Positions 584-34,212 of a stretch of 64,000 nucleotides of DNA are shown here, piece by piece. The DNA is from Chryseobacterium piperi. Its GTDB lineage: Bacteria > Bacteroidota > Bacteroidia > Flavobacteriales > Weeksellaceae. The DNA lies in contig NZ_CP023049.2 in the NCBI RefSeq assembly GCF_002285635.2, positions 310,001 through 374,000 of the forward strand, given 5' to 3'. Below the pieces are notes generated by a model. That model was not told where the DNA came from and made no database searches. It saw nothing but the letters and a program-made list of their open reading frames with translations. The position numbers were made by a program, and so were the translations under genes. Within the stretch, counting starts at the first letter, position 1, and each line of letters starts with the position of its first letter.

Positions 584-1138
584 CTAATTTCCATTAGGAT
601 CTAGAGTCATAGCTATTACAGGGATATACAGGTGTTTTCGCAATTTTCTGACCGGAAGGTATACGAAAATTACGGAGAGTACTCCTGCAAGAATTCCGTC
701 CAGAATGGCCATTGCAGTTGCATCTAATTTATAATATTTTGACAGGCTGAATTGGGCTAGGATCAATATGGATAACACCAATAAACCGGTAATAAGCCCA
801 TGTAGAATACTCAGTCTTGTCATCAGCTTTTTTATATTAAGCTGGTCATCCACCACAAATTCAATAGCGCCCTGTTCGGCAGCAACCGTTACTCTTTTGA
901 TAATATCAATGGTAAGGATGACGGGCAGGAAGATAGCCATGGGAAGAGTAAGCCGTGCCAGATTTTGTGTTCCTGCAAAAAAATGGGTGTAGCCCAGCTC
1001 CTGAAAGCTGGCATACGCAATAATAAAATTGAAAAATACATTCGGAAGGACATAGTAGATCGTTCGCTTGATCAAAAAGCGTTTAAGGGTAGTTTTCTTT
1101 ATTTTCTTTGGTTCAGCAGACTTCATTTCAAATTTCAT
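584..1138 (-). CDS. Four-helix membrane protein, last gene of the lipid cluster
   Basis: This is a 184-residue protein with a lysine-rich N-terminus (KSAEPKKIKKTTLKR) and about four hydrophobic segments, near residues 27-45, 64-80, 110-130 and 145-162, so an integral membrane protein with the basic end probably in the cytoplasm. I recognise no family. Its ATG overlaps the stop of the preceding acyltransferase by four bases, which indicates translational coupling and the same transcript. As the distal member of a glycolipid-type operon it could help move or present the product in the membrane; that is inference from position only. Confidence 0.75.
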   Translation of the reverse strand: MKFEMKSAEPKKIKKTTLKRFLIKRTIYYVLPNVFFNFIIAYASFQELGYTHFFAGTQNLARLTLPMAIFLPVILTIDIIKRVTVAAEQGAIEFVVDDQLNIKKLMTRLSILHGLITGLLVLSILILAQFSLSKYYKLDATAMAILDGILAGVLSVIFVYLPVRKLRKHLYIPVIAMTLDPNGN

Positions 1139-2394
1139 ACAGGTATAGGCTGGGTTAACAGCTCAAGGGCTTTATCTCTGATTTTACTGGCTTCTTCTTT
1201 GGGAAGAAAATACTCATTGGACATGAATGTAAAATCCATTTCCTGATTGTAGGTGCTGGTAACCAGTGTATTGGAGTTCAACCATGGAAATGCTACAGTG
1301 GGGCTAAAAATTGTTTCCAGCTTAAAATGTTTATAATTTTTCGGAATATCAATTTTACCCATATTAGATAAGGTGATATCATGTCCTCCGGTGGTTGACT
1401 TAAGCATGGAAATCATGCGTTCAACAACCGGATGCATTTGTTCTCCCATCCATAAAAGCTCTCGTGCTTCCATCTTGTCTATCTTTTGGATGAGCTCCTC
1501 TTTGATCAGTTTTGCATGATCGATCATATCCTGTTTCCCTTTTTTTAACGATAGCTCAACAGTAGGGGCAAAGGCAAATAAATGGTCTTGTTTGATTTCC
1601 GGGATAAAGTGGCGTACATCTACAGGGCTGATGACTTTACCTTTGGCCTGAGTGCCTTTTATCTCTTGGAATGCCTGCATAAAGGCCGTGCAGAGAAGCG
1701 CATGTACAGAGATGCCATGGGCTTTACATTTTTCGGTGACCTGTACCGTTGTCTTTGAGTCTAACTTTCGGTGGATAGCATAATTTTTTCCGAGATTCCT
1801 CTTTTTGCTTTTCCTTTGCATCAGGAAAAAGATTCTGGCAAACATCAAATAAAGGTTAGCCTTGTATTTCCTTTTGTTTCCATTGGAATTCGCAGGGAAA
1901 AACTCATTCACCGAATTGAATGCCTGATAGGGATCTAACTCGAGAGAGGGGTCATCCAGAAGATAAAGCAATTCGCGGATTAAGGTAACACCCGTTGTAC
2001 CATCACCGATACAATGAGGCACTACCCAAAGCAGTTCAGACATTTCCGGACCCTTGACCCATACCATCCGGGCCAGTGGTTCTTTCTCTTCATTAAAGAG
2101 GTGAAACCACTCCTTTTCAGATTCCAAAAGCCAGTCTTCATCCGTTTTTCGTTCTACAATACGAAGTTCGATAGGCTTAATCTCTTTTTCTTCTACAAAA
2201 AAAGGATACGGCTCACTTTTATCATCAATAGTTGTTCTTAGCAAAGAATGTTTTTGCTGGATTTTTGCTAAAGCAATTTTAAAGTTCTCTTCGGAAAGCG
2301 TTCCGTTGATTCTTGCTGTAAACACACAGTTTAAAGGTGTTTGAGAATCAACATACATGATTCTTTCCACCATCATTAGTTTTCTCTTCATCAT
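1135..2394 (-). CDS. Condensation-domain-like O-acyltransferase, paralog 3
   Basis: This 419-residue stand-alone protein belongs to the condensation/PapA/alcohol-acyltransferase fold. The active-site motif is PHCIGDG, with the catalytic His near residue 127 and the structural Asp four residues on; the usual first His of HHxxxDG is Pro here, which the family tolerates. The C-terminal half carries the typical SNMG motif. Such enzymes move an acyl group from a thioester to a hydroxyl or amine; the substrate cannot be read here. It starts inside the stop codon of the paralog before it (ATGA overlap) and ends the same way into the membrane protein gene. It is clearly more diverged than the other two copies, so it probably has a different donor or acceptor. 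Confidence 0.85.
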   Translation of the reverse strand: MMKRKLMMVERIMYVDSQTPLNCVFTARINGTLSEENFKIALAKIQQKHSLLRTTIDDKSEPYPFFVEEKEIKPIELRIVERKTDEDWLLESEKEWFHLFNEEKEPLARMVWVKGPEMSELLWVVPHCIGDGTTGVTLIRELLYLLDDPSLELDPYQAFNSVNEFFPANSNGNKRKYKANLYLMFARIFFLMQRKSKKRNLGKNYAIHRKLDSKTTVQVTEKCKAHGISVHALLCTAFMQAFQEIKGTQAKGKVISPVDVRHFIPEIKQDHLFAFAPTVELSLKKGKQDMIDHAKLIKEELIQKIDKMEARELLWMGEQMHPVVERMISMLKSTTGGHDITLSNMGKIDIPKNYKHFKLETIFSPTVAFPWLNSNTLVTSTYNQEMDFTFMSNEYFLPKEEASKIRDKALELLTQPIPV

Positions 2395-3662
2395 GATACG
2401 GCTAAATATTCAAGTTTTAATTTGATTGTTTCAATGACTTCATCACGAATGGCCAGAGCATCTGCATACGGTAAATACCCTTCACTTCCGATAAAAGAAA
2501 AATCCATTTCTCCCTGGAATGTTGAGACAACAAACCCGGTAGTCTGGCCTAAAGGGCCAAGTGCCGAAGGGCTAAAAACAGTATCCAATGCAAAGTTCTT
2601 ATATTCATGAGGAACCTGGATAAGTCCTAAATTGGAAAGCATGCAATCGTTGGTTGCTTTACCATTTCTCAAAATTTTCGTGAAATTGTCCAAAGCATAA
2701 TGCCATGATTCTATCACCATCATTTTAATATAGGGATCAAGTTTGGCGGTTTTGCGTTTTACTGTCTTTTGCATTAGGCGTACATTATCAACAAAATTCA
2801 TTTTTTCATTAATCGAAACTTCGACCATAAGCCCGAAAGCAAAAATATGATCGTGTTTGATCTGTGTCGTAAGACGTCTGATATCTACAGGACAGCAAAC
2901 CTTATTTAAAGCTGTCTTTCCTCTTATTTTTTTAAATGCCTTAAGAACTACTGCACATAAAAAGGTATTCACTGTAAAGCCATTGGACTTGCAGTAGGAA
3001 ATCAGCTGTTGGGTCATTTCCTTATCAAATTTCCAGTGAATGAGATAGTCATTTTGCCTCTCAATAGCTTTTTTGCTCACAGGAGCATATTTGATAATAG
3101 TAGACGCCACTCGTCCTATAAATTTTGCCTTCAAACGTTGTCTGCGGCTGTTTAGAATAGCTGGAGGAACAATATCCTGAATTCCCAGGATTGGATTTTC
3201 CGTACCAATATCTGCTGCGGGATTATCCAATACCTGTAAAAACTCATACAGGAGCGTCATTGCAGAACCTCCATCACATAGACAATGGTGAAATGCAAAG
3301 AACATGTCCGATACTTCTTCTCCTTTAATCCATACAAACCGGATTAAAGGAAACTTTTGATGATCAAATGGCATATACCATTCTTTTTTTGATTCTTCCT
3401 GCCAATCATCTTCTCCTTTGCGGATCACTATTCTTATGGGAATAGAAACCACCTGTTCGGGAACTTCAAACCAGGGTATATTTTTCTCGTCATGGGTGAC
3501 GTGTGCCCTTAGCCAGGGATGTTTATTCTGAAGTTGAGCCAAAGCCCGCTGAATTTCTTCCAGGGTGAAGGTACCTTTGAGCCTAAACGGAATAACGCCG
3601 TTAAAAGGCTCCGTTCCGTCTCCCAATATCATACGTTCTCCAAATAGTAATTTTCGTTTCAT
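2391..3662 (-). CDS. Condensation-domain-like O-acyltransferase, paralog 2
   Basis: A 423-residue relative of the gene upstream. It has the full motif HHCLCDGG (catalytic His near residue 126) and a later LSNLG motif. The N-terminus MKRKLLFGERMILGDGTEPF is nearly the same as in the 3885-5156 copy, and most of the length aligns without gaps, so these two arose by a fairly recent duplication. No signal peptide or membrane segment is visible, so a cytosolic enzyme is expected. In the cluster it would acylate hydroxyls of the glycosylated product or esterify two lipid parts. The activity class follows from the motif; the role is inferred from neighbours. Confidence 0.88.
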   Translation of the reverse strand: MKRKLLFGERMILGDGTEPFNGVIPFRLKGTFTLEEIQRALAQLQNKHPWLRAHVTHDEKNIPWFEVPEQVVSIPIRIVIRKGEDDWQEESKKEWYMPFDHQKFPLIRFVWIKGEEVSDMFFAFHHCLCDGGSAMTLLYEFLQVLDNPAADIGTENPILGIQDIVPPAILNSRRQRLKAKFIGRVASTIIKYAPVSKKAIERQNDYLIHWKFDKEMTQQLISYCKSNGFTVNTFLCAVVLKAFKKIRGKTALNKVCCPVDIRRLTTQIKHDHIFAFGLMVEVSINEKMNFVDNVRLMQKTVKRKTAKLDPYIKMMVIESWHYALDNFTKILRNGKATNDCMLSNLGLIQVPHEYKNFALDTVFSPSALGPLGQTTGFVVSTFQGEMDFSFIGSEGYLPYADALAIRDEVIETIKLKLEYLAVS

Positions 3663-3884
3663 AGGGTTATATTGAAATTAGTTTTTGATTCTTCATGTTT
3701 TGTTATACAAAACTTTCTTAACAATTCCACACCATATTGTTGCTATCTGCGGGAAAGAAACGGTTTGATAGTTTCTTTCCTTTTATATTGAAATCCGGCG
3801 GTACCAATCATTTACTGAATTGAATGCCAGACAATGCTGCAGCATACAAACTCCTTTCTAAAAGTATCATTAATTTTTGATTAA
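3663..3884 (-). other. Spacer between acyltransferase genes with hairpin and possible gene remnant
   Basis: This 222-bp gap is the only sizeable break in the operon. A 10-bp hairpin (GGAAAGAAAC/GTTTCTTTCC, 3753-3781) has no T-run on the operon's strand, so it looks like an mRNA-stability or processing element more than a terminator. Around 3807-3830 the minus strand reads LAFNSVND, close to QAFNSVNE in the 1135-2394 gene (about 18 of 20 bases alike). This suggests, weakly, a leftover of another acyltransferase copy. Confidence 0.4.
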
Positions 3885-5156
3885 TTATGATACGGCTATA
3901 TATTCCAGTTGCAGTTTAATCGATTCGATCATCTCATCACGGATAGCCAAAGCCTCCGAATGTGGTAAATACCCTTCGCTCCCCATGAAAGTGAAATCCA
4001 TTTCGCCTCTGAATGTAGAAACCACCATGGTTGTGGTATTACCCAAAGGACCAATCACCGAAGGACTGAAAATTGTGTCCAACGTAAATTCTTTATATTC
4101 ATGAGGAATCTGAATACGTCCCAGGTTTGAAAACATACAGTCATTTGAGGACTTACCCCGTTTCAACAAATTGGTGAAATTTTTCAGAGCATCGTGTCCT
4201 GATTCCATGACCATCATCGTCATGTATGGATTGAGCTTGGAGGTTTTACGTTCCACTTCTTCCTGCATCAGAGCCAAATTATCCAAAAAGCTCATTTTTT
4301 CGTTGGATGAAATAACAATCATCAGCCCAAAAGCGAAAATATGATCTTCTTTTATTTGTGGTGCAAAACGTCTTATATCTACCGGACATGAAACCTTGTT
4401 AAATGCTGCTGTTCCTCTTACTTTTTTAAATGCATGAAGTACTGCTGCACTTAAAAAAGTGTTCACCGTAACTCCCATCGATTTGCAATAAGAGATGAGC
4501 TGCTGACTGATTGCTTTATCAAGCTTCCAATGAATCAGATAATCGTTTTTTCGCTCAACCATTTTTTTCCGTACCGGAATATATTTAATGGCTGTGGCTG
4601 CGAGTCTTCCAATAAATTTTGCTTTAAGCCGCTGTCTGCGATTCGTTAAAATAGCAGATGGAACGACATCTTCAATTCCAAGGATAGGGTTTTCAATTCC
4701 GATATCAGCAGCCGGATGATCCAATACCATCAGAAATTCATATAGAAATGCCATTGCGGCTCCACCATCAGACAAACAATGATGGAAAGCAAAAAGCATA
4801 TCGGATACTCCCTCTCCCTTAATCCATACGAATCGGATAAGAGGGAATTTTTCATAATCAAAGATCGTATGCCATTCTCTTTTAGACTCTTCCTGCCAGT
4901 CATTTTCTCCTTTTCGGACCACGATTCTCATGGGAATAGGTATGGTAGGCTGAGGAACTTCAAACCATGGAATATTTTTTTCATCATGGGTAATGAGTGC
5001 TCGTAGCCAAGGATGCTTAGCCTGAATCTGATATAAGGCATGTCTGATGTTTTCTTCTTTGAAGTCACCCTTTAGCCTGAAAGCAATAACCGCATTGAAG
5101 GGTTCTGTTCCATCCCCCAGGAGCATGCGCTCGCCAAATAACAATCTTCTTTTCAT
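3885..5156 (-). CDS. Condensation-domain-like O-acyltransferase, paralog 1
   Basis: A 423-residue member of the condensation/PapA-like fold with HHCLSDGG (catalytic His near residue 126, Asp at 130) and FSNLG in the C-terminal half. The opening MKRRLLFGERMLLGDGTEPF is shared with the next copy. It begins four bases after the glycosyltransferase stop, so it is co-transcribed with it. Stand-alone enzymes of this type, such as mycobacterial Pap proteins, esterify hydroxyls of glycolipids or polyketides with fatty acyl groups; that comparison is about mechanism, not close kinship. Three such genes in one operon suggest several acylation sites or successive steps. Confidence 0.88.
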   Translation of the reverse strand: MKRRLLFGERMLLGDGTEPFNAVIAFRLKGDFKEENIRHALYQIQAKHPWLRALITHDEKNIPWFEVPQPTIPIPMRIVVRKGENDWQEESKREWHTIFDYEKFPLIRFVWIKGEGVSDMLFAFHHCLSDGGAAMAFLYEFLMVLDHPAADIGIENPILGIEDVVPSAILTNRRQRLKAKFIGRLAATAIKYIPVRKKMVERKNDYLIHWKLDKAISQQLISYCKSMGVTVNTFLSAAVLHAFKKVRGTAAFNKVSCPVDIRRFAPQIKEDHIFAFGLMIVISSNEKMSFLDNLALMQEEVERKTSKLNPYMTMMVMESGHDALKNFTNLLKRGKSSNDCMFSNLGRIQIPHEYKEFTLDTIFSPSVIGPLGNTTTMVVSTFRGEMDFTFMGSEGYLPHSEALAIRDEMIESIKLQLEYIAVS

Positions 5157-5160
5157 AAGC

Positions 5161-7566
5161 TTAAACGGAAACTAAAGTTGAACGTTCTTCTTGTACAAAA
5201 TTCTCTAAAAGCTCTACAGCCTTATCATTTCCGCCTGCAGTAATAAAGGTATGCTGAACCTCTTTAGCGGCAGCTCTGTATTTAGGATTTTCGAGTAATT
5301 CAAAAGCCGTTTCGCGAAGGGCATCAACCCTTAATCTTTTGTATCGGATTCCAATTCCACAACCGGCCTGCTCAATTAATTTTGCAATATGAAAATGGTC
5401 GTAAGCAATAGGAGTGATTAACATTGGTAATCCATTGTAGAAAGTATCATTCACGGTATTGAAACCTCCATGGCAGATCACCATATCCATATGAGGCATT
5501 AAGGCTGACTGGGGCACAAATCCGCTCACGATGAAATTAGAAGGCCATTCTTCAAATATTTCCGGTGGAGTGGCCGCTACAACGGTGACAGGTTGATCGG
5601 CAAATGCAGCAATCACCTTTTCAAAAAAGGCCTTTCTGATATCGACCAGCAATGTGCCTAATGATACAAATATTTTCGGTGTGGTAGCTGCGTTTAGTTT
5701 TTCCCAATCAAAGGGACTGTTGTTTGGACGTCCTTTTACGGGACCTACAAATCTCATATGCGACGGAACAGTGTCAAAACCTGCGAATGCCTGTGATGTA
5801 AACACAAGATTTAATTGATGCGAGTGAATGAAAATACCGTCGTCTGTAATTCCTACTTCCTTTTGGAGATCTTTAATCAGATTTTGCTGCCATTCAAATA
5901 TCTTAGGGGCGCTTTTCTCAGTATCGCCCATCACATCCGGTGGAACGGGAGTGGTAGTCACACAAGGAATTTGATGCTTATGAGCGAAGAGGGCTCCTCC
6001 AAAAGTAATACAGTCGTTTACAATAACATCAGGTCGCCAGTTTTCTGTAAGGCGGGTTAATCCCGGCATCATCATCTTAGCAAACGGAACATACGTTTCC
6101 TCCAACGCCAGTTTCATCACCTCAGGTCCCGAGCATGCGGGGCCATCATCCTGTCTTTTTAAAATACGCTGGATTTCCTCCTGATACGGAATTAGATCTT
6201 CTTCAGGATAATAATACGATCCTCCTTCCGGAATATGTTTGCTGTCCAATGGAGTAATACCGAACCATTTTACTTCATGCCCACGGGCAATGAGGCTGGC
6301 ACCCACACTTAATGTTGGGCTGATGTGTCCGAAAAACGGAGGGATAACAAATAAAAATTTAGAATGTGGTTTTACCTGTTTGGGTTGACTAATCAATGTT
6401 TGTTCGAGCAAATCTGCTGCAGTTGCTGTGCCTCCGGCATCAATAAAAGACTGACGGACAGCTTGAGCTGCTTCCCGGTAACTTTCATTGCTTAAAACCT
6501 GTTCTACAGCTTCCTGTAAATGATTAGCCTTAAATCTGTTGAAATTGAGACGCTCACCAGCTCCTGTACGTACAACGCGTCCGGCAACATGAGACTGATC
6601 ATATGCGATTGGAATCACAACCAGCGGAAGTCCGTTCGAAAGTGCTTCAGAAACCGTATTATGTCCACCGTGACAAACAACGGCATCAAGATGAGGTAAT
6701 AGATCCAATTGTGGAACCTGCTGGTACACCATGAAATTTTCCGGCCAGCTGTCAAAAAGCTGAGGATCGGAAACGACAACAACCGTTAAGTCTTTGTCTT
6801 TAAATGCATCCACTACTTTTTGGAAAAAGGCTTTTTTATGATCATGATCGAAGGTGGTGCCGATACTGACCAGAATTTTCTTTTTGGTACTGCTTTTAAA
6901 GGCATCCCAATCAAATTCACATGCTATACGTCGTTCCGTAAGAACAGGACCTGTGAACTGGTAATTGGAAGGTAAGTCCATTTCACCAAAGAAATATTGT
7001 GAAGTTAAGACCAGGGTTAGTAAATCTGAACAAGCCAAAGAATGGTTTTCTTTTACACCCAGTTCTTCCTGTAATGCCATGATTTGGTTGACTTCCCATT
7101 CATGAACTTTAGGAAGCTCACTGATTATTTTAATGGCAGCCGGTGCCGTAACGGAGGTACAATAGGGAAGACCCAGAGCCTTTGCAGCGATGGGTGCAGC
7201 GAAGAGCTGATGGTCACCAATAATTAAATCGGGTTGATATGCTTTAAGTAAGGTAACAATACCGTTATAACAGTGTCTGTTTAAAGGAATGAGAACATCT
7301 TCATAAAGAAACTTGATGCTGTCAATACCATACACTACTTTTTTTGAAATAATATCGAGATATTGTTCACTTTCTCTTTTTTCATCATCAGTCTGATCGT
7401 ATTGAATAAGTAAGAGCTCTCCTCCGGCAGGAAGTTTAGCGCTAAGATTGTTATCAAGACTGATCCATGCCACCTGATGTCCTCTTTCTAACAGAGTAGC
7501 ACCGATGCTTAAGGTTGGATTGACATGTCCTGTCAATGGTGGAACTATAAATACAAATTTAGCCAT
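5161..7566 (-). CDS. Tandem-fused GT1 (UGT/MGT-type) glycosyltransferase
   Basis: This 801-residue protein holds two complete GT1 units in one chain. Each starts with a glycine-rich N-terminal motif (VPPLTGHVNPTLSIGATLLE near residue 8; IPPFFGHISPTLSVGASLI near 409) and ends with a donor-binding signature: HGGHNTVSEALSNGLPLVV near 297 and HGGFNTVNDTFYNGLPMLI near 695. The acceptor-side His of GH is present in both. GT1 enzymes move a sugar from a nucleotide-sugar to a small-molecule or lipid hydroxyl; the closest style is macrolide or zeaxanthin glucosyltransferase. Family members are usually about 400 residues, so the doubling is unusual and could give two sugars in a row. The start overlaps the hydrolase stop by eight bases. 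Confidence 0.9.
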   Translation of the reverse strand: MAKFVFIVPPLTGHVNPTLSIGATLLERGHQVAWISLDNNLSAKLPAGGELLLIQYDQTDDEKRESEQYLDIISKKVVYGIDSIKFLYEDVLIPLNRHCYNGIVTLLKAYQPDLIIGDHQLFAAPIAAKALGLPYCTSVTAPAAIKIISELPKVHEWEVNQIMALQEELGVKENHSLACSDLLTLVLTSQYFFGEMDLPSNYQFTGPVLTERRIACEFDWDAFKSSTKKKILVSIGTTFDHDHKKAFFQKVVDAFKDKDLTVVVVSDPQLFDSWPENFMVYQQVPQLDLLPHLDAVVCHGGHNTVSEALSNGLPLVVIPIAYDQSHVAGRVVRTGAGERLNFNRFKANHLQEAVEQVLSNESYREAAQAVRQSFIDAGGTATAADLLEQTLISQPKQVKPHSKFLFVIPPFFGHISPTLSVGASLIARGHEVKWFGITPLDSKHIPEGGSYYYPEEDLIPYQEEIQRILKRQDDGPACSGPEVMKLALEETYVPFAKMMMPGLTRLTENWRPDVIVNDCITFGGALFAHKHQIPCVTTTPVPPDVMGDTEKSAPKIFEWQQNLIKDLQKEVGITDDGIFIHSHQLNLVFTSQAFAGFDTVPSHMRFVGPVKGRPNNSPFDWEKLNAATTPKIFVSLGTLLVDIRKAFFEKVIAAFADQPVTVVAATPPEIFEEWPSNFIVSGFVPQSALMPHMDMVICHGGFNTVNDTFYNGLPMLITPIAYDHFHIAKLIEQAGCGIGIRYKRLRVDALRETAFELLENPKYRAAAKEVQHTFITAGGNDKAVELLENFVQEERSTLVSV

Positions 7567-8341
7567 GGTTTTGTGTTTTAGATTTAGATAAAAAATGAAC
7601 GATAGTTTCTGCTATCTGATGAGGTTCCTGGATAGGGATATTGTGATCACCAGGAATTAATTCCAATTCAGACAAGACGATTTGCGATTGTAGAAATTCG
7701 CCTGTAGGTCTGCAGTTGGACCCAGAACCGTAAAGTAACAAAGTAGGAACAGCCAGATCATGGAGAGGAACTTCATTCAGGAAATTTTTTTCCCGTATCA
7801 TATCTGCTTTAATGCTGGTCTGCTCAAATAGAAACTCATACATACGATGGTTTTTTTCCATTTGCCTTTTGCCCATCTGAACTTTTGTGGTGTCTGTGAA
7901 ATTAGCTACATAATGTTCAAGGAACTCTTTACTATATTCGTCAATAATATTACGTGTTTTGTCATCTCTCGGATCCGGAGCTTCCATAATCACCAGCTGA
8001 TTTACACGGTCAGGATATTTCAAAGCGGTTTTAAGGGCAACAAGGCCTCCGAAACTGTATCCTACAAGATGTACTTTTTCGAGCTGGAGATAATCCATCA
8101 AACTAATAAGGTCGGATGACATGTTGTCCAGATCATATCCATCCGGAAAACGCTCACTCATGCCGTGGCTTTTTAAATCATACATCACAACATGGAAATG
8201 CTGAGCCAGGACAGGAGCAATATTAAAATAGTAAATGGACAGATTGCTGAACATACCGTGGATGAGCACCACGGTTTGTTTAGCATCTTTGTTGAGTTCC
8301 TGTATATGAACTTTTCTATTGTCAACAGTAATTATTGGCAT
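7559..8341 (-). CDS. Alpha/beta hydrolase, candidate releasing thioesterase/esterase
   Basis: A 260-residue alpha/beta-hydrolase fold protein. It has the oxyanion-side motif VLIHGMFSN near residue 26, the nucleophile elbow GYSFGG (Ser near 94) and a C-terminal PGDHN with the likely catalytic His near 233. There is no signal peptide, so it should act in the cytosol. It lies between the free ACP gene and the glycosyltransferase and overlaps both (10 and 8 bases). In a synthase operon that has no built-in thioesterase domain, it is the natural candidate for off-loading the chain from the ACP or for hydrolysing or transferring an ester. The fold is clear, the specific reaction is inference. Confidence 0.85.
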   Translation of the reverse strand: MPIITVDNRKVHIQELNKDAKQTVVLIHGMFSNLSIYYFNIAPVLAQHFHVVMYDLKSHGMSERFPDGYDLDNMSSDLISLMDYLQLEKVHLVGYSFGGLVALKTALKYPDRVNQLVIMEAPDPRDDKTRNIIDEYSKEFLEHYVANFTDTTKVQMGKRQMEKNHRMYEFLFEQTSIKADMIREKNFLNEVPLHDLAVPTLLLYGSGSNCRPTGEFLQSQIVLSELELIPGDHNIPIQEPHQIAETIVHFLSKSKTQNHG

Positions 8342-11600: not shown

Positions 11601-12857
11601 GGTTTGTTGCATATCAGCGATTGGATTTTCACAGTATAAGGTTGGCGGTAAAATATCGTGATGCAGAGCCAGACAGGTTTTGATTAAACCTGCAATACCT
11701 GCTGCAGGCATAGCATGTCCTATATTGGATTTTACAGACCCTATACCCGCAGCCTGTGCTGTTTCTTCTTTACCGAAAAACTGTGCGAGGGTCTGAAGTT
11801 CTGTTTTATCTCCGAGTGGTGTTCCGGTACCATGAGCTTCAAGATAACCAATCTTTTTTTCATCGAGATCAGCATTGTGCCAGGCTTGTTCCAGGGCTTT
11901 CAGCTGGCCTTTTACGGATGGGCTCATCACACTGGTTCCATTACCGTCGCTGCTGATGCCCACGCCTTTAATTACGGCATAGATTTTATCCTGGTCGCGA
12001 ACAGCGTCTTCTAATCGTTTTAAAACTACGAAGCCACAGCCTTCTCCGATTAATAATCCATCGGCATCCATGCTGAACGGCTTGATCTGCTGTTGACGAG
12101 ACATCGCTCCCAGCTGGGCAAAAATACTCCAGAAAGCAGCATTCTGTCCCGTGTGAACACCTCCTGCAATAACCATATCACAACGGCCACGATGAAGTTC
12201 CTGCACAGCATGGTCTACAGCAAGTAAAGCACTTGCGCAGGCAGCATCTACAGTGAAGGCTGCACCTCCCAGGTTGAAACGGTTGGCAACCAAAGAAGCC
12301 ACAAGATTAGGAATTAATCCCATGGCAGTATCGGCAGCAAAACGTCCTTTACGTTCCTGGAAAGCATACTTCACTTTTTCGATATCTGCTGAAGAAACTT
12401 CCGGTAATAATTCCTGGAGTAACGATGAAATCTGTTCTCCGGTCCTTACAATTTCGATAGCACGGGTAGCTCCGGGTCCTGTATAGTTTCCTTTACCAAT
12501 GATGATTCCTGTTTTTTCAAGTGAAATCTTCTTTTGAAAAACGCCTGCATCTTCCAATGCTTTCTGTACCAGGTCAAGGGTTAATAAGTGGTCAGGTTCT
12601 GTTCCTTCCACGGCTAATGGTAAAATACCAAATGCTGTGGGATCAAACTCATAATCAGGAATGAATCCGCCGCGTTTACAGTAAAAACGGTCGACCGGGC
12701 TGGTAGCATCGCTAAAGTGAACCGGATCGATCCGGTCAGCAGGAGCCAACTCGGTAGAATCTACTTTATTGATGATATTTTGCCAAAAAGTTTGGGCGTC
12801 TTGTGCCCCCGGGAAGACACAAGACAGACCAATTACAGCAACATCTGTTTTTTTCAT
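8619..12857 (-). CDS. Pfa-type synthase subunit: KS-AT-DH-like-PPTase
   Basis: A 1412-residue multidomain enzyme. The ketosynthase occupies about residues 1-455, with all three catalytic residues (Cys207 in DAACASA, His342 in EAHGTG, His381 in NIGHA). The acyltransferase region (about 530-800) keeps Ser605 in GHSLGE and His706 in FHSPF. A linker is followed by a hot-dog/dehydratase-like region (about 945-1200) with HPYLIDH and a downstream LLDNAGQ (DxxxQ) near 1105, as in lipid-type synthase dehydratases. The C-terminal 150 residues are a phosphopantetheinyl transferase with GIDMEIM near 1321 and WVAKEAYGKF near 1365. This combines PfaB/PfaC-like and PfaE-like functions in one chain. It starts 19 bases after the first synthase. 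Confidence 0.9.
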   Translation of the reverse strand: MKKTDVAVIGLSCVFPGAQDAQTFWQNIINKVDSTELAPADRIDPVHFSDATSPVDRFYCKRGGFIPDYEFDPTAFGILPLAVEGTEPDHLLTLDLVQKALEDAGVFQKKISLEKTGIIIGKGNYTGPGATRAIEIVRTGEQISSLLQELLPEVSSADIEKVKYAFQERKGRFAADTAMGLIPNLVASLVANRFNLGGAAFTVDAACASALLAVDHAVQELHRGRCDMVIAGGVHTGQNAAFWSIFAQLGAMSRQQQIKPFSMDADGLLIGEGCGFVVLKRLEDAVRDQDKIYAVIKGVGISSDGNGTSVMSPSVKGQLKALEQAWHNADLDEKKIGYLEAHGTGTPLGDKTELQTLAQFFGKEETAQAAGIGSVKSNIGHAMPAAGIAGLIKTCLALHHDILPPTLYCENPIADMQQTRFAPVQEAKNWSKTGLPKVAAVNAFGFGGINAHVVLEGYDMPKKDPVLLLARATREELLSALQNNETTIGEGNYRIALFDPTPERIEKAIKIVSKNNSWRNKQDIWYTSTPLLQDGGKIAFVFPGLDGLAKGEVDSVSRYFGLTEPIETEGEGLLTDALGVFNKCCILDHSLKKLGIVPDMNAGHSLGEWLAGYSSELAEANSVKALIDVLHPETFELKDSKFIAIGTGIDTITPLIGQIPNLYVSNDNCPNQVILCGSNAALDELVPLLKSKQIFHQVLPFQSGFHSPFIADQLDVILAGMEKAQFQQTKIPLWSATTLAPYPADQDAIRKLSAEHLVQPVRFRELTDKLYEEGARFFIQVGTGGLIGFIDDTLKGKAFSTIASSTPTRSALAQLQRVVAALFVEGKMTALDFLNLHSSSKKPSGKGIKLQLGSPIVRDFKEIKSLTPSFDASRKNKVSATVAKTGHPLVQAFQENIEDMIRMQEEVLTLFQNRPETPAPNFAPPKPKVPASTHFDQALHVNLDSHPYLIDHSLLRQPAGWPHVSDMEPVIPMTMIFEQLAEIAEAEIPGTLVHKIMNVSVFQWMNVAKPFEKTVKGEWRSSNHAYLDIENFANAEVVLKSTSIPVPNFKLSIGDLLPIERTPEEIYDKHMFHGDAYQGITEVSAVGTKGIIGKIKGNGGKGSLLDNAGQLFGLWLQLTLTKDRIAFPVKIKDIEFFGNMHDQEGLFECTCMLTELNDEFAIADIMLKRDGKVWCMITGWQNRRLEIDAPLWNVSMSPLHNRLSEEIAPEVFFFHQAYTRVASWDFILKRYFNQTEKQHHQQLLPNKKKNWMVSRVAVKDAVRNLLRQQKNYACFPITFEISSDEAGKPYLISDFTEDIHVSLAHKGKEAVAIARHGSPVGIDMEIMEERSSGFYDLVFTDGELALLKGRDQAEWTTRFWVAKEAYGKFLGTGLKGNPKAYEVTRIQDDHLWINQIEIKTIKHKNYIIGWTL

Positions 12858-12876
12858 AGTTATTATATACAGAGGG

Positions 12877-15800
12877 TTACCAATTACTTCCTGACATGAT
12901 AAGCACTTGGCTTTCAGTTCCGTATTTTATCTCATTAAGAAAAGTCTCCTTTCCCTGATCCAATGGAATTAAAGAAATACCACGACGCTCATATTCTGTT
13001 TCCAGTGTTGGTGAGACCATTCCGGCACCTTTCCATGGTCCCCAGTTGATAGAAATTACTTTTCCTTTTAATCTTTTGTCTAAAGCTCTGGCGTAATCAT
13101 CCAGTACGCTGTTTGCCGCTGCATAATCTGTTTGGCCTTTGTTTCCATATACCGAAGCAATACTTGAAAATAAAACAACAAATTGGCAATCCGCACGAAG
13201 CTGTTCTGCTAGTACACGTAGAGGTTTTACCTTGGTATCAAATACACGTCCAAAGGAAACGGTTGTTTTCTGTTTAAACAATTTGTCTTCCAATAAACCT
13301 GCTCCATGAATAACACCATCCAAACGATCATATTTTTCATAAATATTGTTGATAAGGTCACATAATCCGTCTTCATCACAAAGGTCTAAGGATTGATAAA
13401 CCACTGTGCTTCCAAGTTGCTCCATATCTCTGATGGTACGAAGGATCTGATTATTTTTGAAAACACGAACCGTTTCTTTTTCTATTTCGGCAGGGGAGGT
13501 GAAATTGGCTGTTTTAATCAGGTAGCTTCTTATTTCCTCTTTGGTTTTCATCATTTCCAGCTCTTTAGATCCGGAAACTTCATCCCTTGGATCCGCTGAA
13601 CGTCCGACAAGAATATAGGTACATGGATAGGCTTCTGACATATGCTTAACAAGCTCAGAAGTGATTCCCTGTGCGCCCCCGAGTACCAGAACAACGGATT
13701 GCTCATCCAGTTGGATATGCGCTTCTTCAAGGCTGGTAGACAATGGAGATGGGATGATATCCACTTTATGTCTTTGGTTATTTTTATAAATGACTTCAAC
13801 TGGTTTGTCAGCCGTCAGAATTTCCTGCAAAGTAATTTCAGCAACCTGGTCAATCTCCTGAGAAGTGCTTAGGCTGATCAGTCTGCAGGTCGTATTTTCA
13901 AATTCTCTTGCTAAACTTTTGAAAAGTCCTGAATATCCCTGATAATGACGTAAAATACGCATGTCTTCCAGTTCTTCAAGGTGTGCAGGAATATCTGTAA
14001 TCAGATACACCCATTTGGCTTTATCAAGATCCAGTTTTTTTATAAGCCCTACGTGATCGATAATGCTGTTTTTAACAGAAGAAGAGAATATGTCGAGAAT
14101 AATTAATCCGTCAAAGTTCGTCAGATCATTATCTGTATCCACCAATTCTGCAATTGCACCATATTTTTCAAGGGTATTTTTGATAGCTAATGTTTGCATG
14201 CCATTGTCCTGAGTAATTGCAAAACGTTTTCCCTGTAGTATTTCTGTATTTTGTATAAACGATGCATCAGTCGGGCTCAAATCGAAGCGAAGACGTGATA
14301 ACATAGCTTGCTCCGGTTCAGTGTTATTGGTCTTGGTATTGTCAGGAGTACTGATCGTATTATCTGTATTACCGGTATTACTGATGTCATGAATCCATGT
14401 TGCCAGTCCGCTTAATGTTTTGATAGCCGCCAGTTTTTCCATAAGGTCATCAGCCTGCTCCAGATTTTCACCAAAACCTATTTTGGTTTTAAGATCCGCG
14501 ATGATTTCCATACGCTTAATGGAGTCAATACTTAAATCGGCTTCCAGATCTAAATCCAATCCCAACATTTCTTTTGGATATCCGGTTTTTTCACTCACAA
14601 TATCCAGAATGGCTTTTTGAAGATCTTCAAGAGAGAATGACGATTGGCTCTGTGGTTTTGAGGTTGTGATTTCCGCATGATTTCCATTGGTTTCAGAAAC
14701 AGTTGTCTCTGTACCTCCTATACATTCTGTAAGCCAGGAAACTAAACCGCTTAAAGTTTTTATTCCTGCCAATTGCTCCATTACCGTATCCTCATTAGCC
14801 TGATTGTTGGCAAATGCACCTAGCTCATTACGGAGAGTTCCTATGATTTCAACTCTTTTAATAGAGTCGATGCTTAGGTCGGCCTCCAGATCCATTTCCA
14901 TTCCTAACATTTCCTGAGGATATCCTGTTTTTTCACTGACAACCTGTAATAATACAGATTTGATATCTTTTGCCGGAGCTTGTTTGGTTGGTGTAATAAC
15001 AGCGGTAGCAGCTGGTTTATCTCCATTGACCTGTGTAGCGGGGATGGTTACCAGGCCGTTGACATGGTTGGACGCCGGTGCCGGAGTGTGGTATACAGGA
15101 GCTTGAGTTATTTGTGGATTCTGCCCTAAAAAGGAAAGCATAACGTCACGTTGTGCCTGTATAAGCAGTTTCATACTATTTAAATATTCCTGCAGCATAC
15201 GTTCAGCGGCTGGCTGGCTTTCAGTTGCAGGGGCTTGTTGATTGGTGAAATTGTTCATTTGAAGAGGGTTTAAAATAGGTAATGCACCATTGGTTGGCAA
15301 TGAGCCTGTTGTTGGATGAGCAGCTTGCCCATTAACACGCCAGATGGCAGGATTTTTCTTATAAAGATCAGGTTGATCAATCTGGATCAATTTACCGTTA
15401 CGGCCTTCGAAAAGCTTGTTGAGGTCGAAATGTCGGCCTGTACCCAAATATTCGGCAAGCATGCAAAGAAGATGGCTGAATTTATTACGGCTGTTATCCT
15501 CTACAAAAAGAGTTAATTGATCTTTTCCCAGACAGGATTGGGTTAACCCTGTAAGTACCTTACCTGGCCCTACTTCGATGAAGATTCTTGCTCCATCGTC
15601 ATACATTGCCTGGATTTCTTCTACAAACCTCACTGGCTGTACCAAATGGTCTGTCAATCTTTCCTTTATTTCAGATGAATTATTCGGATATGGAGTGGCT
15701 GTGGTATTCGACCATACAGGGATCTCCATTTCCCGGAAAGGAACATCTTTTAATACTTCAGTGTACAAATCTTTGGATTTGGCGAGTAAAGGACTATGGA

Positions 15801-18800
15801 ATGCACAGGCAACCTCCAGTTTCTTAGCTGAAATACCTTCCTGTTTAAGAACCTCCATTAATTGGTTGATAGCCGGTGTGCTTCCTGCGATCACACATTG
15901 TGAAGGAGCATTGTAATTGACAGGATAACAACCTTCTACTTTTGCGAGGATAGGTTGTAAGCGTTCTTTGGTTGCACTCGCAGCCAGCATGGTGCCCGGA
16001 TCTCCTCCTTCTACAGAATTCAAAATGGAATGTGCACGTTGGATACTTAAGTCAACCAGTTTTTCTTCCCCGAATACACCGGCAAAACACAATGCAGGTA
16101 ATTCACCATAGCTATGGCCAGCCAGCATATCCGGAACAATACCTAATGATTTCAGGAATTGAGCCAATGCAAGGTCAACGATACCTAAAAGAGGCTGTGC
16201 TAAGCGCGTATCTTTTATTGTTTCTTTTTGTTGTTTTAACGTCTCTGGATCAAAAGTAGTGGAAGGGAAGACTACTTTTTCAAGCTCCGGGTAATCTTCC
16301 ATAAGCTTGCGCATCGCAGGGAAAATTACAAACAGGTCGCGAGCCATATTGATTCGCTGACTTCCTTGTCCCGGGAATAAAAAGGCTACCTTACCAGCAC
16401 GTTTATTAACCGTGAAGGTGTCTTTAGTTTCAATACCGGATTGGATCAATTCGATTTTCATCATCAGATCTTCAGCGGTGTCAGCAACAATACTTAGCTG
16501 TACAGGCTTTTCTGAGCCAACTGTTAAGCTGTAAGCAATATCTTTTAAAGAGATGCTGTCGTTGATTTCCAATAAAGATTTTACCTGAACCAATTGGTTT
16601 TTGGCTTCTTCGTAAGTGTCTCCGCGGAATACAAACAATTCTGATGGCCAGGATTGTAATACAACAGATTCTTCTTGTTCCGTATGATTGGCAATCACCG
16701 TATGGAAATTAGTTCCGCCAAACCCAAAAGCGCTGATCCCGGCATAACGGTTTTTGTCGCTCCATAGTCCGCTTTCTGCATAAAAAGCGAAAGGGCTGGT
16801 TTGTGCATTATAATAAGCATTGGGCTGTTGAAGATGCAAAGTAGGAGGTTTTACACCGTGATACACTGCTAGAGAAGCTTTGATAAGACCTGCTAATCCG
16901 GCTGCGCATTTGGTATGTCCAATCTGTGTTTTTACAGATCCTAAATGCGTTTGACCAGGCAGAGCTCCTGAACGGCTGAATAAATTGGTCAGTGAACTAA
17001 GTTCCGTTTTGTCTCCAACTACTGTTCCCGTACCATGAGCTTCAACCAATCCTACGGATGCAGGACTGATACCCGCTTGGGCATAAGCACGCTCTAAAGC
17101 ACGTACCTGACCTACTTTTCTTGGTGCGGTAAGTCCAAGAGCTTTACCGTCACTGGATCCTCCGACCCCTTTGATCACTGAATAAATGCGATCACCATCA
17201 CGTAGTGCATCATCATATCTTTTTAAAACAAGAATAGCAATCCCTTCTCCAAGGGCAATACCATCTGCCTCACTGTCGAATGTGGCACATCTTCCTTTTC
17301 GGGAAAGTGCATGGGTGCTGGAAAACATAAGGTAATCATTAATACCATTATGTAAGTCAGCTCCACCGGCAAGAACCATATCTGATTTGCCTAATATAAG
17401 TTCCTGGCATGCCAGTTCAATAGCTGCTAAAGAAGAAGCACAGGCAGCATCTACCGTATAGTTTCTTCCACCAAGGTCTAATCGGTTGGTGATTCGTCCT
17501 GCGATTACATTCGCTAGAATACCAGGGAAAGAATCCTCTGTGGTATGTGGAAATGCTTCTTTAACCTCGTCATGAAGTTCTCCGAAAACCTGCTTATAAT
17601 AGCCTCTGAAGCTATAGCTGTTGGCAAGATCATTGCCTCCTTCGGCTCCGATAATTACGGAAATATTTTCTCTGTTGACTTGCTTTTCTCCATATCCTGC
17701 GTCTTCCATGGCGCGCTTGGCAACCAGCAATGTCAATAATTGTGTCGGTTCAATGGCTGCAAGGGATTGTGGTGGGATTCCAAATGCAAGCGGATCAAAA
17801 TCAATTTTTGGAATAAATCCACCCCATTTGGAGTGGGAAACATCCGGTCCGTCTGAATCCGGATGATAGTAAAGGTCCTTATTCCATCGTTCATCAGGAA
17901 CTTCTGTAACACTGTCTTTTCCAAGAATGATGTTACGCCAGTATTCCTCCAGATTTTTAGCACCTGGGAAAATACATTCCATTCCAATAATGGCAACATC
18001 CAATGGTTTTTCGCTGGATGATGGCTGCTCCGGTAAAGCAGCGTGTTCGATGTAGCTGTAATTGTCTACAGCAACATCTTCATGGAGCGCTGCAATAGAG
18101 ACAACACGGTCATGCATGGTGGCAACCTGTCCGATCATGTACATGCCAAGATCCAGCTGCTCGTCTTTAGGAATGCTTACAAGTTTGTCGCCTTGACGGT
18201 CAACTCCCTTGGCAGCAATACGCAAGCGGCCTACATTTAGTTTTTCCAGGTGCTCCCAGGCTTGTTTTTTATCCACTCCTGCAGCCAGAAGTTTTGTTTT
18301 TTCAGCATTAAAATATTGTGCAAATGCAGTATTTAAACAACGGGTTTCGTGTCCGGGTGCTGTTTCCAGTAAGACGGTATCTTTTGCCTGCATAGCCTGC
18401 AACTGGAATTCTTCCTGAATCGCTCCTGTAAGTACAGCCTCGTGAGTATAAAGATAGGCTGTTCCCATTAATACACCGATTTTTACTCCTCTGGCAGCTA
18501 ACGGAGCCGCCATAATAGAAATAAATGCTGATGAAAATGCATTGTGAATACCTCCTGCAAAAAATACACTGATATTTTCAGGATGATCTTCTTTTAAGAT
18601 GCGTTCAATCTGTTTTTCCCAAAGAACCATACTTGAAAGGGGACCTACATGGCCTCCGCATTCACGTCCTTCAAAGATGAAGTTTCTGGCTCCTTCTTTT
18701 AAGAAAATATCCAGTAAGGCTGGGGAAGGAACATGTAAAAATGTTTTGATTCCTGCTTTTTCGAAAACTTTAGCCTGTGCGGGTCTTCCTCCGGCAATCA

Positions 18801-19935
18801 GGACTACGGGAGGTTTAGCTTCCAGGATATATGAGGTTTGTTCTTCTCTTAGTTCCTGAGGAGCAAAACCTAAAATACCTACACCCCAAGTTTTTTCGCC
18901 GGCAAGCTTTTGAGTTTCCATTACCAAAGCTTTTGCCTGTTCCCCTTTAAGTAAAGACAAAGCTACGAAAGGTAGAGCTCCCGCTTCGGCTACAGCATTA
19001 GCAAATAAAGGAACATCGCTGACGCGGGTCATTGGTCCTTGTGCGATAGGATAGCGTAGACCCAGTTCTTTTGCAAGTATATTGTCCTGATCAATCACCT
19101 GAAGAGCTTTTGCCTGTTTCAGATGTCCGTACATGGCTTCTTTATACCCGAAGACCATTTTTTTCAGGGTTTTAAAATCTTCATACAAATCTATTGCTAA
19201 CGAAATATCTTGTCCCATTGGGATATAGCTTTTCGTAACATCAAGATCAGTAAAGTATTGCTGAAGTTCCTTAGCGCTTATGTTTTCCGGTAAGGTTGGT
19301 GAGTTAGGTCTTACCAGTACCCGGTGGTTGGCTATAATTTTGGTTTCGGTTCCATTTAATTTTGAGCATAGATCTTTTAGCTCCTGAGGAACTGAACTCT
19401 CCGGAAACAGAGCTAGCTGGCTGTCTAATATGACCCCTGTTGCTCCCAGAGCTTTTACCGCAGCAGCAGTATGGAGGCCTATTCCTCCCTGTACCCATAC
19501 CGGGATGTTTTGAATTTCATTGATGATACGCTGAAACAGAATAAAGGTAGACTCATATCCGACAAGTCCGCCGGCTTCGTTTCCTTTTATAATAATCCCT
19601 GTTGCACCCATCTGTTCGGCCTCCCTGGCCTCTTCCAGACTGCTTACCTGGTAGATAGCAGGTAAATTATGGGAGAATGGCTTTGAACTGTCAAACGGCA
19701 GGATAGCAAAGCTTGCTTTTTCCGGAATTTGAAGTGAAGTAAAAGGGTCGCTAGGAAAATAAATACCACAGGATGGTATATCTATCTTATCAAGTTGATT
19801 CAAAGCTTCCTGAGCGGTCGTTAACTCATGTCCTAAGCTTAAAACTGGAAATGCACCCGCCTGATGTAATCCAGACAAAAGGTGGGCATCCGGCTTTTCA
19901 AAAGGCGTTAGTCCAATAATGGTTAAGTTTTTCAT
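12877..19935 (-). CDS. Giant Pfa-type synthase: ER-ER-KS-AT-ACP-ACP-KR
   Basis: About 2352 residues from the ATG at 19935; a start at 19980 is possible, but MKNLTIIGL fits and the upstream duplicate conserves exactly this start. Two FMN-type TIM barrels like FabK/PfaD come first: residues ~1-225 (AGGLVGYES, QGGIGLHTA) and ~290-545 (AQGPM, ECGGHVG). The KS (~640-1080) has Cys832, His967 and His1007. The AT (~1180-1480) has Ser1275 in GHSYG. Two ACPs carry LSIDSIK with serines at ~1691 and ~1805. A C-terminal KR has GGAQGI near 2085 and Tyr2271 in DYAAAN. This is PfaA with a PfaD-like enoyl reductase fused in front, an arrangement unlike the classical separate pfaD gene. It heads the operon. 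Confidence 0.92.
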   Translation of the reverse strand: MKNLTIIGLTPFEKPDAHLLSGLHQAGAFPVLSLGHELTTAQEALNQLDKIDIPSCGIYFPSDPFTSLQIPEKASFAILPFDSSKPFSHNLPAIYQVSSLEEAREAEQMGATGIIIKGNEAGGLVGYESTFILFQRIINEIQNIPVWVQGGIGLHTAAAVKALGATGVILDSQLALFPESSVPQELKDLCSKLNGTETKIIANHRVLVRPNSPTLPENISAKELQQYFTDLDVTKSYIPMGQDISLAIDLYEDFKTLKKMVFGYKEAMYGHLKQAKALQVIDQDNILAKELGLRYPIAQGPMTRVSDVPLFANAVAEAGALPFVALSLLKGEQAKALVMETQKLAGEKTWGVGILGFAPQELREEQTSYILEAKPPVVLIAGGRPAQAKVFEKAGIKTFLHVPSPALLDIFLKEGARNFIFEGRECGGHVGPLSSMVLWEKQIERILKEDHPENISVFFAGGIHNAFSSAFISIMAAPLAARGVKIGVLMGTAYLYTHEAVLTGAIQEEFQLQAMQAKDTVLLETAPGHETRCLNTAFAQYFNAEKTKLLAAGVDKKQAWEHLEKLNVGRLRIAAKGVDRQGDKLVSIPKDEQLDLGMYMIGQVATMHDRVVSIAALHEDVAVDNYSYIEHAALPEQPSSSEKPLDVAIIGMECIFPGAKNLEEYWRNIILGKDSVTEVPDERWNKDLYYHPDSDGPDVSHSKWGGFIPKIDFDPLAFGIPPQSLAAIEPTQLLTLLVAKRAMEDAGYGEKQVNRENISVIIGAEGGNDLANSYSFRGYYKQVFGELHDEVKEAFPHTTEDSFPGILANVIAGRITNRLDLGGRNYTVDAACASSLAAIELACQELILGKSDMVLAGGADLHNGINDYLMFSSTHALSRKGRCATFDSEADGIALGEGIAILVLKRYDDALRDGDRIYSVIKGVGGSSDGKALGLTAPRKVGQVRALERAYAQAGISPASVGLVEAHGTGTVVGDKTELSSLTNLFSRSGALPGQTHLGSVKTQIGHTKCAAGLAGLIKASLAVYHGVKPPTLHLQQPNAYYNAQTSPFAFYAESGLWSDKNRYAGISAFGFGGTNFHTVIANHTEQEESVVLQSWPSELFVFRGDTYEEAKNQLVQVKSLLEINDSISLKDIAYSLTVGSEKPVQLSIVADTAEDLMMKIELIQSGIETKDTFTVNKRAGKVAFLFPGQGSQRINMARDLFVIFPAMRKLMEDYPELEKVVFPSTTFDPETLKQQKETIKDTRLAQPLLGIVDLALAQFLKSLGIVPDMLAGHSYGELPALCFAGVFGEEKLVDLSIQRAHSILNSVEGGDPGTMLAASATKERLQPILAKVEGCYPVNYNAPSQCVIAGSTPAINQLMEVLKQEGISAKKLEVACAFHSPLLAKSKDLYTEVLKDVPFREMEIPVWSNTTATPYPNNSSEIKERLTDHLVQPVRFVEEIQAMYDDGARIFIEVGPGKVLTGLTQSCLGKDQLTLFVEDNSRNKFSHLLCMLAEYLGTGRHFDLNKLFEGRNGKLIQIDQPDLYKKNPAIWRVNGQAAHPTTGSLPTNGALPILNPLQMNNFTNQQAPATESQPAAERMLQEYLNSMKLLIQAQRDVMLSFLGQNPQITQAPVYHTPAPASNHVNGLVTIPATQVNGDKPAATAVITPTKQAPAKDIKSVLLQVVSEKTGYPQEMLGMEMDLEADLSIDSIKRVEIIGTLRNELGAFANNQANEDTVMEQLAGIKTLSGLVSWLTECIGGTETTVSETNGNHAEITTSKPQSQSSFSLEDLQKAILDIVSEKTGYPKEMLGLDLDLEADLSIDSIKRMEIIADLKTKIGFGENLEQADDLMEKLAAIKTLSGLATWIHDISNTGNTDNTISTPDNTKTNNTEPEQAMLSRLRFDLSPTDASFIQNTEILQGKRFAITQDNGMQTLAIKNTLEKYGAIAELVDTDNDLTNFDGLIILDIFSSSVKNSIIDHVGLIKKLDLDKAKWVYLITDIPAHLEELEDMRILRHYQGYSGLFKSLAREFENTTCRLISLSTSQEIDQVAEITLQEILTADKPVEVIYKNNQRHKVDIIPSPLSTSLEEAHIQLDEQSVVLVLGGAQGITSELVKHMSEAYPCTYILVGRSADPRDEVSGSKELEMMKTKEEIRSYLIKTANFTSPAEIEKETVRVFKNNQILRTIRDMEQLGSTVVYQSLDLCDEDGLCDLINNIYEKYDRLDGVIHGAGLLEDKLFKQKTTVSFGRVFDTKVKPLRVLAEQLRADCQFVVLFSSIASVYGNKGQTDYAAANSVLDDYARALDKRLKGKVISINWGPWKGAGMVSPTLETEYERRGISLIPLDQGKETFLNEIKYGTESQVLIMSGSNW

Positions 19936-20078
19936 GGCATTTATGGTATTGAATTGATTTTCATAACAAAACAGGGTCACCTTTTTGCATCACGGTTGTT
20001 GTTTTTGTTACGAGAAAATAAAAATTATTAATATATAGTTTTTTTAATAATAAATGTAATTTGATAATGATTCCTTAA
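19889..20078 (-). repeat. Promoter/start duplication, copy A
   Basis: This is the proximal copy of a roughly 190-bp block holding the first codons of the giant synthase, its leader and its promoter. It matches 20142-20339 with about 75-80 percent identity by eye, including leader phrases such as TTTTTAATAATAAA and GTAATTTGATAAT. Confidence 0.85.
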
Positions 20079-20085: not shown

Positions 20086-20188
20086 AGAGGTTTGTTTTCC
20101 ACATATGATTAGCAGATAAGCTCTTTGGAATAAGATTGATGTCCGGCTTTTCAAAAGGCATTAAGCCCATAATGGTTAAGTTTTTCAT
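20075..20188 (-). pseudogene. Truncated duplicate of the synthase start (37-codon ORF)
   Basis: The minus strand reads MKNLTIMGLMPFEKPD and then diverges, stopping at 20075 after 37 residues. The first 16 residues differ from the giant synthase start in only two positions. The sequence after residue 16 has no similarity to the synthase, so this is a broken 5' copy, made by tandem duplication or left from a deleted paralogous synthase. Because it keeps its own promoter-like region, it may still be transcribed and act as a short leader peptide in front of the real gene. Confidence 0.7.
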
Positions 20189-20339
20189 TGCATTTATGGT
20201 TTTGAAGTGTGTGCAAGAGGTTTCATAACAAAAACGCTAACCTTTCGGATAATGCGCAATTGTTTGTTATGACGGAATAAAAGTAATTAATTTCTGTGAT
20301 ATTTTTAATAATAAAGGTAATTTGATAATAATTTCTTAA
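20142..20339 (-). repeat. Promoter/start duplication, copy B
   Basis: The distal copy of the block at 19889-20078, in the same orientation. Similarity starts inside codon 16 of the truncated ORF and runs through the leader to the promoter, then stops. Confidence 0.85.
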
Positions 20340-20343
20340 CAAA
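20312..20343 (-). promoter_or_regulatory. Candidate promoter B (duplicated)
   Basis: On the minus strand TTTG (20343-20340) is followed 20 bases later by TACCTTTA (20319-20312). Spacing and sequence fit Bacteroidetes TTTG/TAnnTTTG promoters better than copy A. Retention of these elements in both copies supports their being functional. Confidence 0.5.
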
Positions 20344-34171: not shown

Positions 34172-34212
34172 CATCTACAATCATTAACAATTAAATCATT
34201 AATACAAAACCT

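Follow-up and report, generated by a model that had tools for sequence, protein, structure and literature searches.

A secondary lipid synthase operon of Chryseobacterium piperi with glycosyltransferase and acyltransferase genes, a candidate source of acylated glycolipids

This study concerns a nine-gene operon within a 64,000-nucleotide stretch of the Chryseobacterium piperi genome (contig NZ_CP023049.2, positions 310,001 to 374,000 of the forward strand; hereafter the window), in which two Pfa-like synthase proteins, KS1 and KS2, are encoded with a free acyl carrier protein (ACP), an alpha/beta hydrolase, a pair of fused glycosyltransferases (GTs), three acyltransferases (AT1 to AT3) and a membrane protein. 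Its probable product is an acylated mono- or diglycosyl long-chain lipid, which would be assembled in the way that mycobacterial glycolipids are. A preliminary description of this DNA had proposed that a Pfa-like synthase of the secondary-lipid type is joined here to its own glycosylation and acylation steps, for a product that matches none described; the gene families, the motifs and a literature search agree with that central idea. Support for our interpretation comes from the families and motifs of every gene and from a complete set of reducing domains, including the fold of the dehydratase (DH). The analysis shows the gene set and its order, their conservation, the catalytic motifs, the DH fold, the horizontal spread of the unit and a five-gene core found in Streptomyces.

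In the pathway that we propose, KS1 and KS2 would together act as an iterative, fully reducing synthase with ketosynthase (KS), malonyl-type acyltransferase (AT), ketoreductase (KR), DH and enoyl reductase (ER) domains and its own phosphopantetheinyl transferase (PPTase), and would build a long, mostly saturated chain on which at least one hydroxyl is left. The KS2 AT domain, together with the free ACP and the hydrolase, would probably start, off-load or release the chain, after which the GT1-type pair would add to it one sugar, or two in succession. The PapA5-like acyltransferases would then esterify free hydroxyls, as on mycobacterial glycolipids, using a set that ancestrally held one enzyme of type A and one of type B and in which type A has been duplicated in the window. 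More speculatively, the membrane protein may aid assembly at the membrane or export through it. We infer the substrates, the order of the steps, the product and its cellular role, which could be that of an outer-envelope lipid or a secreted surfactant.

The synthase is predicted from its domains (Table 1) to be an iterative, fully reducing fatty-acid or polyketide synthase. KS1 scores 1056 bits against the NCBIfam PfaA model TIGR02813 (cut-off, 1010), and its relatives keep the Cys-His-His of the KS domain, the Ser/His/Arg of the AT domain and the DS motifs of both ACPs; its extra N-terminal NMO-like half looks degenerate. The KS domains of both proteins have Cys-His-His in nearly all of the 78 sequences compared. 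The DH domain of KS2 reaches 23.9 bits against PS-DH, for which the cut-off is 23.7, and its AlphaFold model (mean pLDDT, 73) matches the DH of curacin CurJ (3kg8) with a Foldseek E value of 1.7e-11; relatives conserve both the His in DHSLLRQP and the Asp in DNAGQLFG. The KS2 AT domain is shortened and has Ser and His but not the Arg needed to bind the malonyl carboxylate, and its Streptomyces homologue is alike in this. This pattern suggests that the KS1 AT domain is the extender AT and that the KS2 AT domain serves some other acyl transfer.

The free ACP has the motif DLEMDSIEIV, which is invariant across 78 sequences. The hydrolase, which would have a probable role in chain release or transfer, reads YGSGSNC, without the acidic residue found at this site in most relatives. 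Given this substitution, the Arg missing from the KS2 AT domain and the apparently degenerate NMO half, the earlier statement that catalytic residues are intact throughout does not hold. The GT gene matches TIGR01426 in two stretches at 389.5 bits (cut-off, 260), and the His/Asp pair and HGG donor motif of MGT/GT1 enzymes are present. Its two halves are joined head to tail and are 37% identical; both carry the N-terminal His/Asp pair in 79 sequences, with minor variants of the Asp motif. The donor motif reads YDQ in all 79 first halves and YDH in all 79 second halves (about 5200-6370 in the window), a difference that may correspond to two different sugar donors. At 24 of 24 loci of the Pedobacter/Mucilaginibacter clade, each half is encoded by a gene of its own, the two lying side by side, and the doubled glycosyltransferase recognized in the preliminary description is thus a fusion of two genes.

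By fold comparison, the closest solved structure to both AT1 and AT3 is PapA5 (8s6l). All three acyltransferases had been expected to show the HHxxxDG motif of the condensation/PapA families; AT1 and AT2 do, and AT3 deviates with PHCIGDG, its orthologues having variants of PHxxxDG in which the second His is kept. AT1 and AT3 stand for two old families, type A and type B, and most loci carry one of each. The clade of AT2 holds the window and two other loci (L051 and L076) only, among the Chryseobacterium loci examined, and the extra acyltransferase copies of Mucilaginibacter are of independent origin. The three-acyltransferase state is local to a small Chryseobacterium lineage; the triple acylation proposed earlier matches the three genes of the window, but it is lineage specific, AT2 having arisen recently by duplication of AT1, and the ancestral and usual number is two. 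The membrane protein has 13 invariant positions across 38 sequences, matches no known Pfam or NCBIfam family and gave only helical-bundle noise in fold searches with its predicted model.

The nine open reading frames are co-directional and occupy positions 584 to 19935 of the minus strand, in the transcription order KS1, KS2, ACP, hydrolase, GT pair, AT1, AT2, AT3 and membrane protein. Successive junctions measure +19, -13, -10, -8, +4, +222, -4 and -4 bp, such that the tight coupling first described holds with one exception, a 222-bp gap between AT1 and AT2 that is the sole break in a series of overlapping or nearly overlapping genes. The operon is more than a chance arrangement: the order KS1-KS2-ACP-hydrolase-GT(-GT)-ATA-ATB-mem is whole in 75 of 80 named loci from Chryseobacterium, Flavobacterium, Sphingobacterium, Pedobacter and Mucilaginibacter (the other loci mostly lie at contig ends), and dN/dS is low. 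By NG86, dN/dS is about 0.02-0.10 per gene where dS could be estimated, values that are rough given that dS is near saturation; every operon gene is under purifying selection. Decay of the operon was considered and rejected, as the reading frames are open and dN/dS is low.

Full-length KS2 was found in 51 of 88 same-genus genomes (about 58%, the window counted), at 85-89% identity to the window KS2. Given this frequency among the sampled Chryseobacterium species and the presence of the operon in four other genera, a comparison of carriers with noncarriers should readily reveal the product. In one further same-genus genome, which is 75% complete, KS2 is broken by stop codons (G063:C1:3954961-3959155), possibly through decay or poor assembly. 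The DH module occurred in only 4 of 395 Bacteroidota species sampled, and the unit is therefore patchy. We looked for conserved neighbors, such as a transporter or regulator, around the 80 loci and found no flanking gene common across genera, which indicates a self-contained unit. The KS2 tree places Sphingobacterium with Flavobacterium and Chryseobacterium (support, 100) and not with its family members Pedobacter and Mucilaginibacter, and it nests Flavobacterium seoulense within Chryseobacterium. By these placements, the unit has moved horizontally across the boundaries between orders. One carrier, Sphingobacterium detergens CECT 7938 (L062), belongs to a species named for surfactant production and is a possible lead to a product; the open-licence literature searched contained no paper tying its surfactant to the operon.

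Two Streptomyces plasmids, NZ_CP108735.1 and NZ_CP108492.1, found by a protein search of a plasmid collection, carry genes for KS1, KS2, ACP, hydrolase and GT in the same order, followed by a methyltransferase gene. Identities to the window proteins are 45% for KS1, 36% for KS2 (98% covered), 23% for ACP, 28% for the hydrolase and 34% for GT; neither a PapA-type acyltransferase nor the membrane protein is present in the two clusters. Synthase pair, ACP, hydrolase and GT thus form a core that either predates the Bacteroidota operon or has passed between phyla as a unit, with glycosylation as an old, core step and acylation as a Bacteroidota addition. Given that the GT occurs without acyltransferases in Streptomyces, it most likely acts on the chain made by the synthase itself.

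Several points weigh against the acylated glycolipid. No product has been seen, and none for this set of genes came out of a search of the open-licence full-text literature that covered Chryseobacterium, Pedobacter, Sphingobacterium and Bacteroidetes, an absence that is weak evidence. Sequence proves neither the hydroxyl on the chain nor the action of the GTs on it, and both the GTs and the acyltransferases could have a different aglycone as their substrate. The ACP and the hydrolase are of generic kinds, and the KS2 AT domain could be nonfunctional. GT1 enzymes are promiscuous, and because of this the type and number of sugars cannot be predicted from the GT sequence.

The main rival, which we regard as unlikely, follows the logic of PapA and MAS: the synthase would make acyl chains only, and the PapA5-like enzymes would move them from the free ACP to an acceptor produced elsewhere in the cell, which could be a mono- or disaccharide or be already glycosylated, giving an acyl sugar and not a glycosylated hydroxy fatty acid. 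PapA5 itself moves acyl chains made by the iterative synthase MAS onto a diol, and here the acyltransferases are closest to PapA5 and a free ACP is encoded together with them. However, the Streptomyces version has a GT and no PapA-type acyltransferase, which ties the GT more tightly to the synthase than the acyltransferases are, and no conserved neighbor encodes another acceptor. It is improbable that an acyl or polyene chain is turned into a pigment or an antibiotic polyketide glycoside with short acyl groups added by the acyltransferases. The GTs do belong to the macrolide-glycosyltransferase family (TIGR01426), and PapA-type enzymes also accept short acyl donors, but the full reducing set (KR, DH and ER) predicts a largely saturated chain, and the conserved unit lacks genes for resistance, dedicated efflux and regulation. 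The assignment of flexirubin, the Chryseobacterium pigment, to another cluster (PMC10459008) also counts against a pigment.

An ordinary pfa cluster making polyunsaturated fatty acids (PUFAs), with neighbors unrelated in function, is very improbable even though KS1 exceeds the NCBIfam cut-off for PfaA, given that the GT and acyltransferase genes belong to the operon in essentially all complete loci, and PUFA synthesis was rejected on domain content. Instead of the KS-CLF pair and FabA-like DH/isomerase of pfaABCD clusters (Types A and B), there is one KS per subunit and a double hotdog DH of the polyketide synthase (PKS) type; no match to the CLF or FabA families was found in KS1 or KS2. Two ACPs are present in KS1 in place of at least four in tandem (four to six). 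By the motif definitions of PMC3098273, the PPTase has AGKP for P1a, x(G/D)xP, and VSLAH for P1b', hShxH, with VRNLLR where P0, hRxhLS, would be, which places it in the M-T group rather than with Types A-B; P1a is not universal, as some relatives have RKP. Of the two-subunit PUFA/secondary-lipid type named in the preliminary description, the two proteins and the secondary-lipid part stand, and the PUFA part is withdrawn.

The operon has a GC content of 41.6%, compared to 34.0% in the window beyond 20343. Its start is the KS1 ATG at 19935; the GTG start listed at 19980 was rejected as probably wrong, given that the ATG opens MKNLTIIGLTPFEKPD and that this start is repeated in a decayed copy upstream. 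The copy consists of 20142-20209 (68 nt, 90%) and 20302-20339 (38 nt, 92%), as if the promoter region upstream of KS1 had been duplicated. The span originally drawn, 584-20343, is correct at 584 and extends beyond the operon at the other end because the decayed copy of the KS1 5' end reaches 20339. The Bacteroidetes promoter pattern in a relaxed form, TTG-N20-TANNTTTG, has a single, tentative match at 20467-20497 on the minus strand, 562 bp before the KS1 ATG. At the 3' end, the hairpin at 519-540 is probably the operon terminator, derived from the end of the adjoining insertion sequence. A DDE transposase gene (DUF772/IS1182-like; 1-456 of the window and L107:13119-14456) adjoins this end of the operon. 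Elsewhere in the window, an IS21-like istA/istB pair (32513-34956) is followed shortly by a low-GC (26-27%), two-gene Gabija anti-phage system on the plus strand (35879-39818; GajA, 601 bits, and GajB, 522 bits, in PADLOC).

Table 1. Window coordinates of the operon genes, their predicted domains and the elements at the operon ends
Feature	Position	Strand	Basis
Decayed second copy of KS1 leader and start	20142-20339	-	Two repeats
KS1, 2352 aa, fused "PfaD-PfaA"	12877-19935	-	Pfam/NCBIfam and conserved motifs
KS1 NMO half, apparently degenerate	about 19935-19070	-	
KS1 enoyl reductase, FabK-like (FabK/NMO-type)	19068-18082	-	
KS1 KS domain	18000-16831	-	
KS1 AT domain, malonyl-type	16383-15538	-	
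KS1 ACPs, two	about 14973-14731 and 14631-14386	-	
KS1 KR	13695-13030	-	
KS2, 1412 aa, KS-AT-DH-PPTase	8619-12857	-	Pfam/NCBIfam, motifs, fold match
KS2 KS, Cys-His-His intact	12848-11634	-	
KS2 AT domain, shortened, Ser-His present, no Arg	11087-10509	-	
KS2 dehydratase, PKS-type	10055-about 9290	-	PS-DH and fold
KS2 phosphopantetheinyl transferase, C terminus	about 9260-8619	-	
Free ACP, 99 aa	8332-8631	-	Families and motif
Alpha/beta hydrolase, 260 aa; GYSFGG nucleophile, GDHN His	7559-8341	-	Families and motifs
Fused GT1/MGT-family glycosyltransferase pair, 801 aa	5161-7566	-	TIGR01426, two stretches
AT1, PapA5-like acyltransferase, type A, HHxxxDG	3885-5156	-	Motif; PDB 8s6l PapA5, E 1.6e-18
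AT2, lineage-specific AT1 duplicate, HHxxxDG	2391-3662	-	73% identical to AT1; tree clade
AT3, PapA5-like acyltransferase, type B, PHxxxDG	1135-2394	-	Motif; PDB 8s6l, E 2e-19
Membrane protein, 184 aa, predicted four-helix bundle, last operon gene	584-1138	-	Family search and model
Hairpin GGCTGTCTC-AAAA-GAGATAGCC, then T6	519-540	-	Read directly in sequence

Type N and Type M synthases were catalogued in 2011 and still lack a known product, and the core shared across phyla points to a glycosylated long chain that would be further acylated in Bacteroidota. It is possible, though we lean slightly against it, that the operon represents a whole class of acylated glycolipids, horizontally spread among soil and water Bacteroidota and built on a synthase-ACP-hydrolase-GT core also present in Actinomycetota. 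Such a class, with chains and sugars of new structure, would be a Gram-negative counterpart of the acylated glycolipids of mycobacteria. The natural variants, with two or three acyltransferases, with fused or separate GTs or with no acyltransferases, are built-in tests of each step.

Among described systems, KS1 and KS2 fit the Type N secondary lipid synthase, which was reported from Chryseobacterium gleum and Chitinophaga pinensis with no known product (Shulse and Allen 2011, PMC3098273). Like Type N, the window operon encodes a Pfa-like synthase of Bacteroidota, Chryseobacterium included, with a PfaA-like KS-AT-ACP-KR protein and M-T PPTase motifs, and the C. gleum cluster is very likely the same cluster. 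That paper covers the synthase alone, and no word starting with "glycosyl" occurs in its text (PMC3098273). The system first called undescribed is therefore of a synthase type already known in 2011, but the unit as a whole and the core that it shares across phyla appear undescribed, as do the GT and acyl steps attached to the synthase, within the literature searched. The Streptomyces plasmid clusters would belong to Type M (Actinomycetota: Frankia, Renibacterium and Streptomyces avermitilis) and share with the window the five-gene core, the domain order and a KS2 AT domain without Arg; they differ in having one GT rather than two and an added methyltransferase, at 23-45% identity. A 2026 survey, in which Chryseobacterium is not mentioned, reports that pfaDA and pfaBC-PPTase are fused in Renibacterium (Type M) and also in two hybrid clusters of Bacteroidota (PMC13291983).

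The Type P ars cluster of Beijerinckia (pBIND02) and Azotobacter has homologous ER-KS-AT-ACP-KR and DH-PPTase proteins, those of pBIND02 being 41.5% identical to KS1 and 27% to the DH-PPTase part of KS2. Type P is the phenolic-lipid family, with long alkyl chains of C22-C26 in Azotobacter (PMC3098273). In contrast to the window operon, its head group is made by type III polyketide synthases, its second protein has no KS2-AT part and no hydrolase or PapA-type acyltransferase is annotated in the cluster. The heterocyst glycolipid (hgl) cluster, Type F, resembles the window operon in pairing an iterative Pfa-like synthase with a glycosylated chain but has a different gene set, and PapA-type acyltransferases are not known from hgl clusters. 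Its HglC is a KS-CLF-AT protein without DH (PMC3098273), an arrangement found in neither KS1 nor KS2. In Chryseobacterium herbae, antiSMASH called an hglE-KS/T1PKS/terpene region with no known relative (PMC10459008). The contig coordinates of that region contain one of our loci (L029).

The mycobacterial loci for phthiocerol dimycocerosate (PDIM)/phenolic glycolipid, sulfolipid and glycopeptidolipid combine an iterative synthase, GT1-type GTs, PapA-type acyltransferases and small membrane proteins. Their synthases differ from those of the window (MAS/Pks), they have FAAL and MmpL partners, and only the acyltransferases and GTs are homologous, distantly, to those of the window; in how they work, they are like the operon described here.

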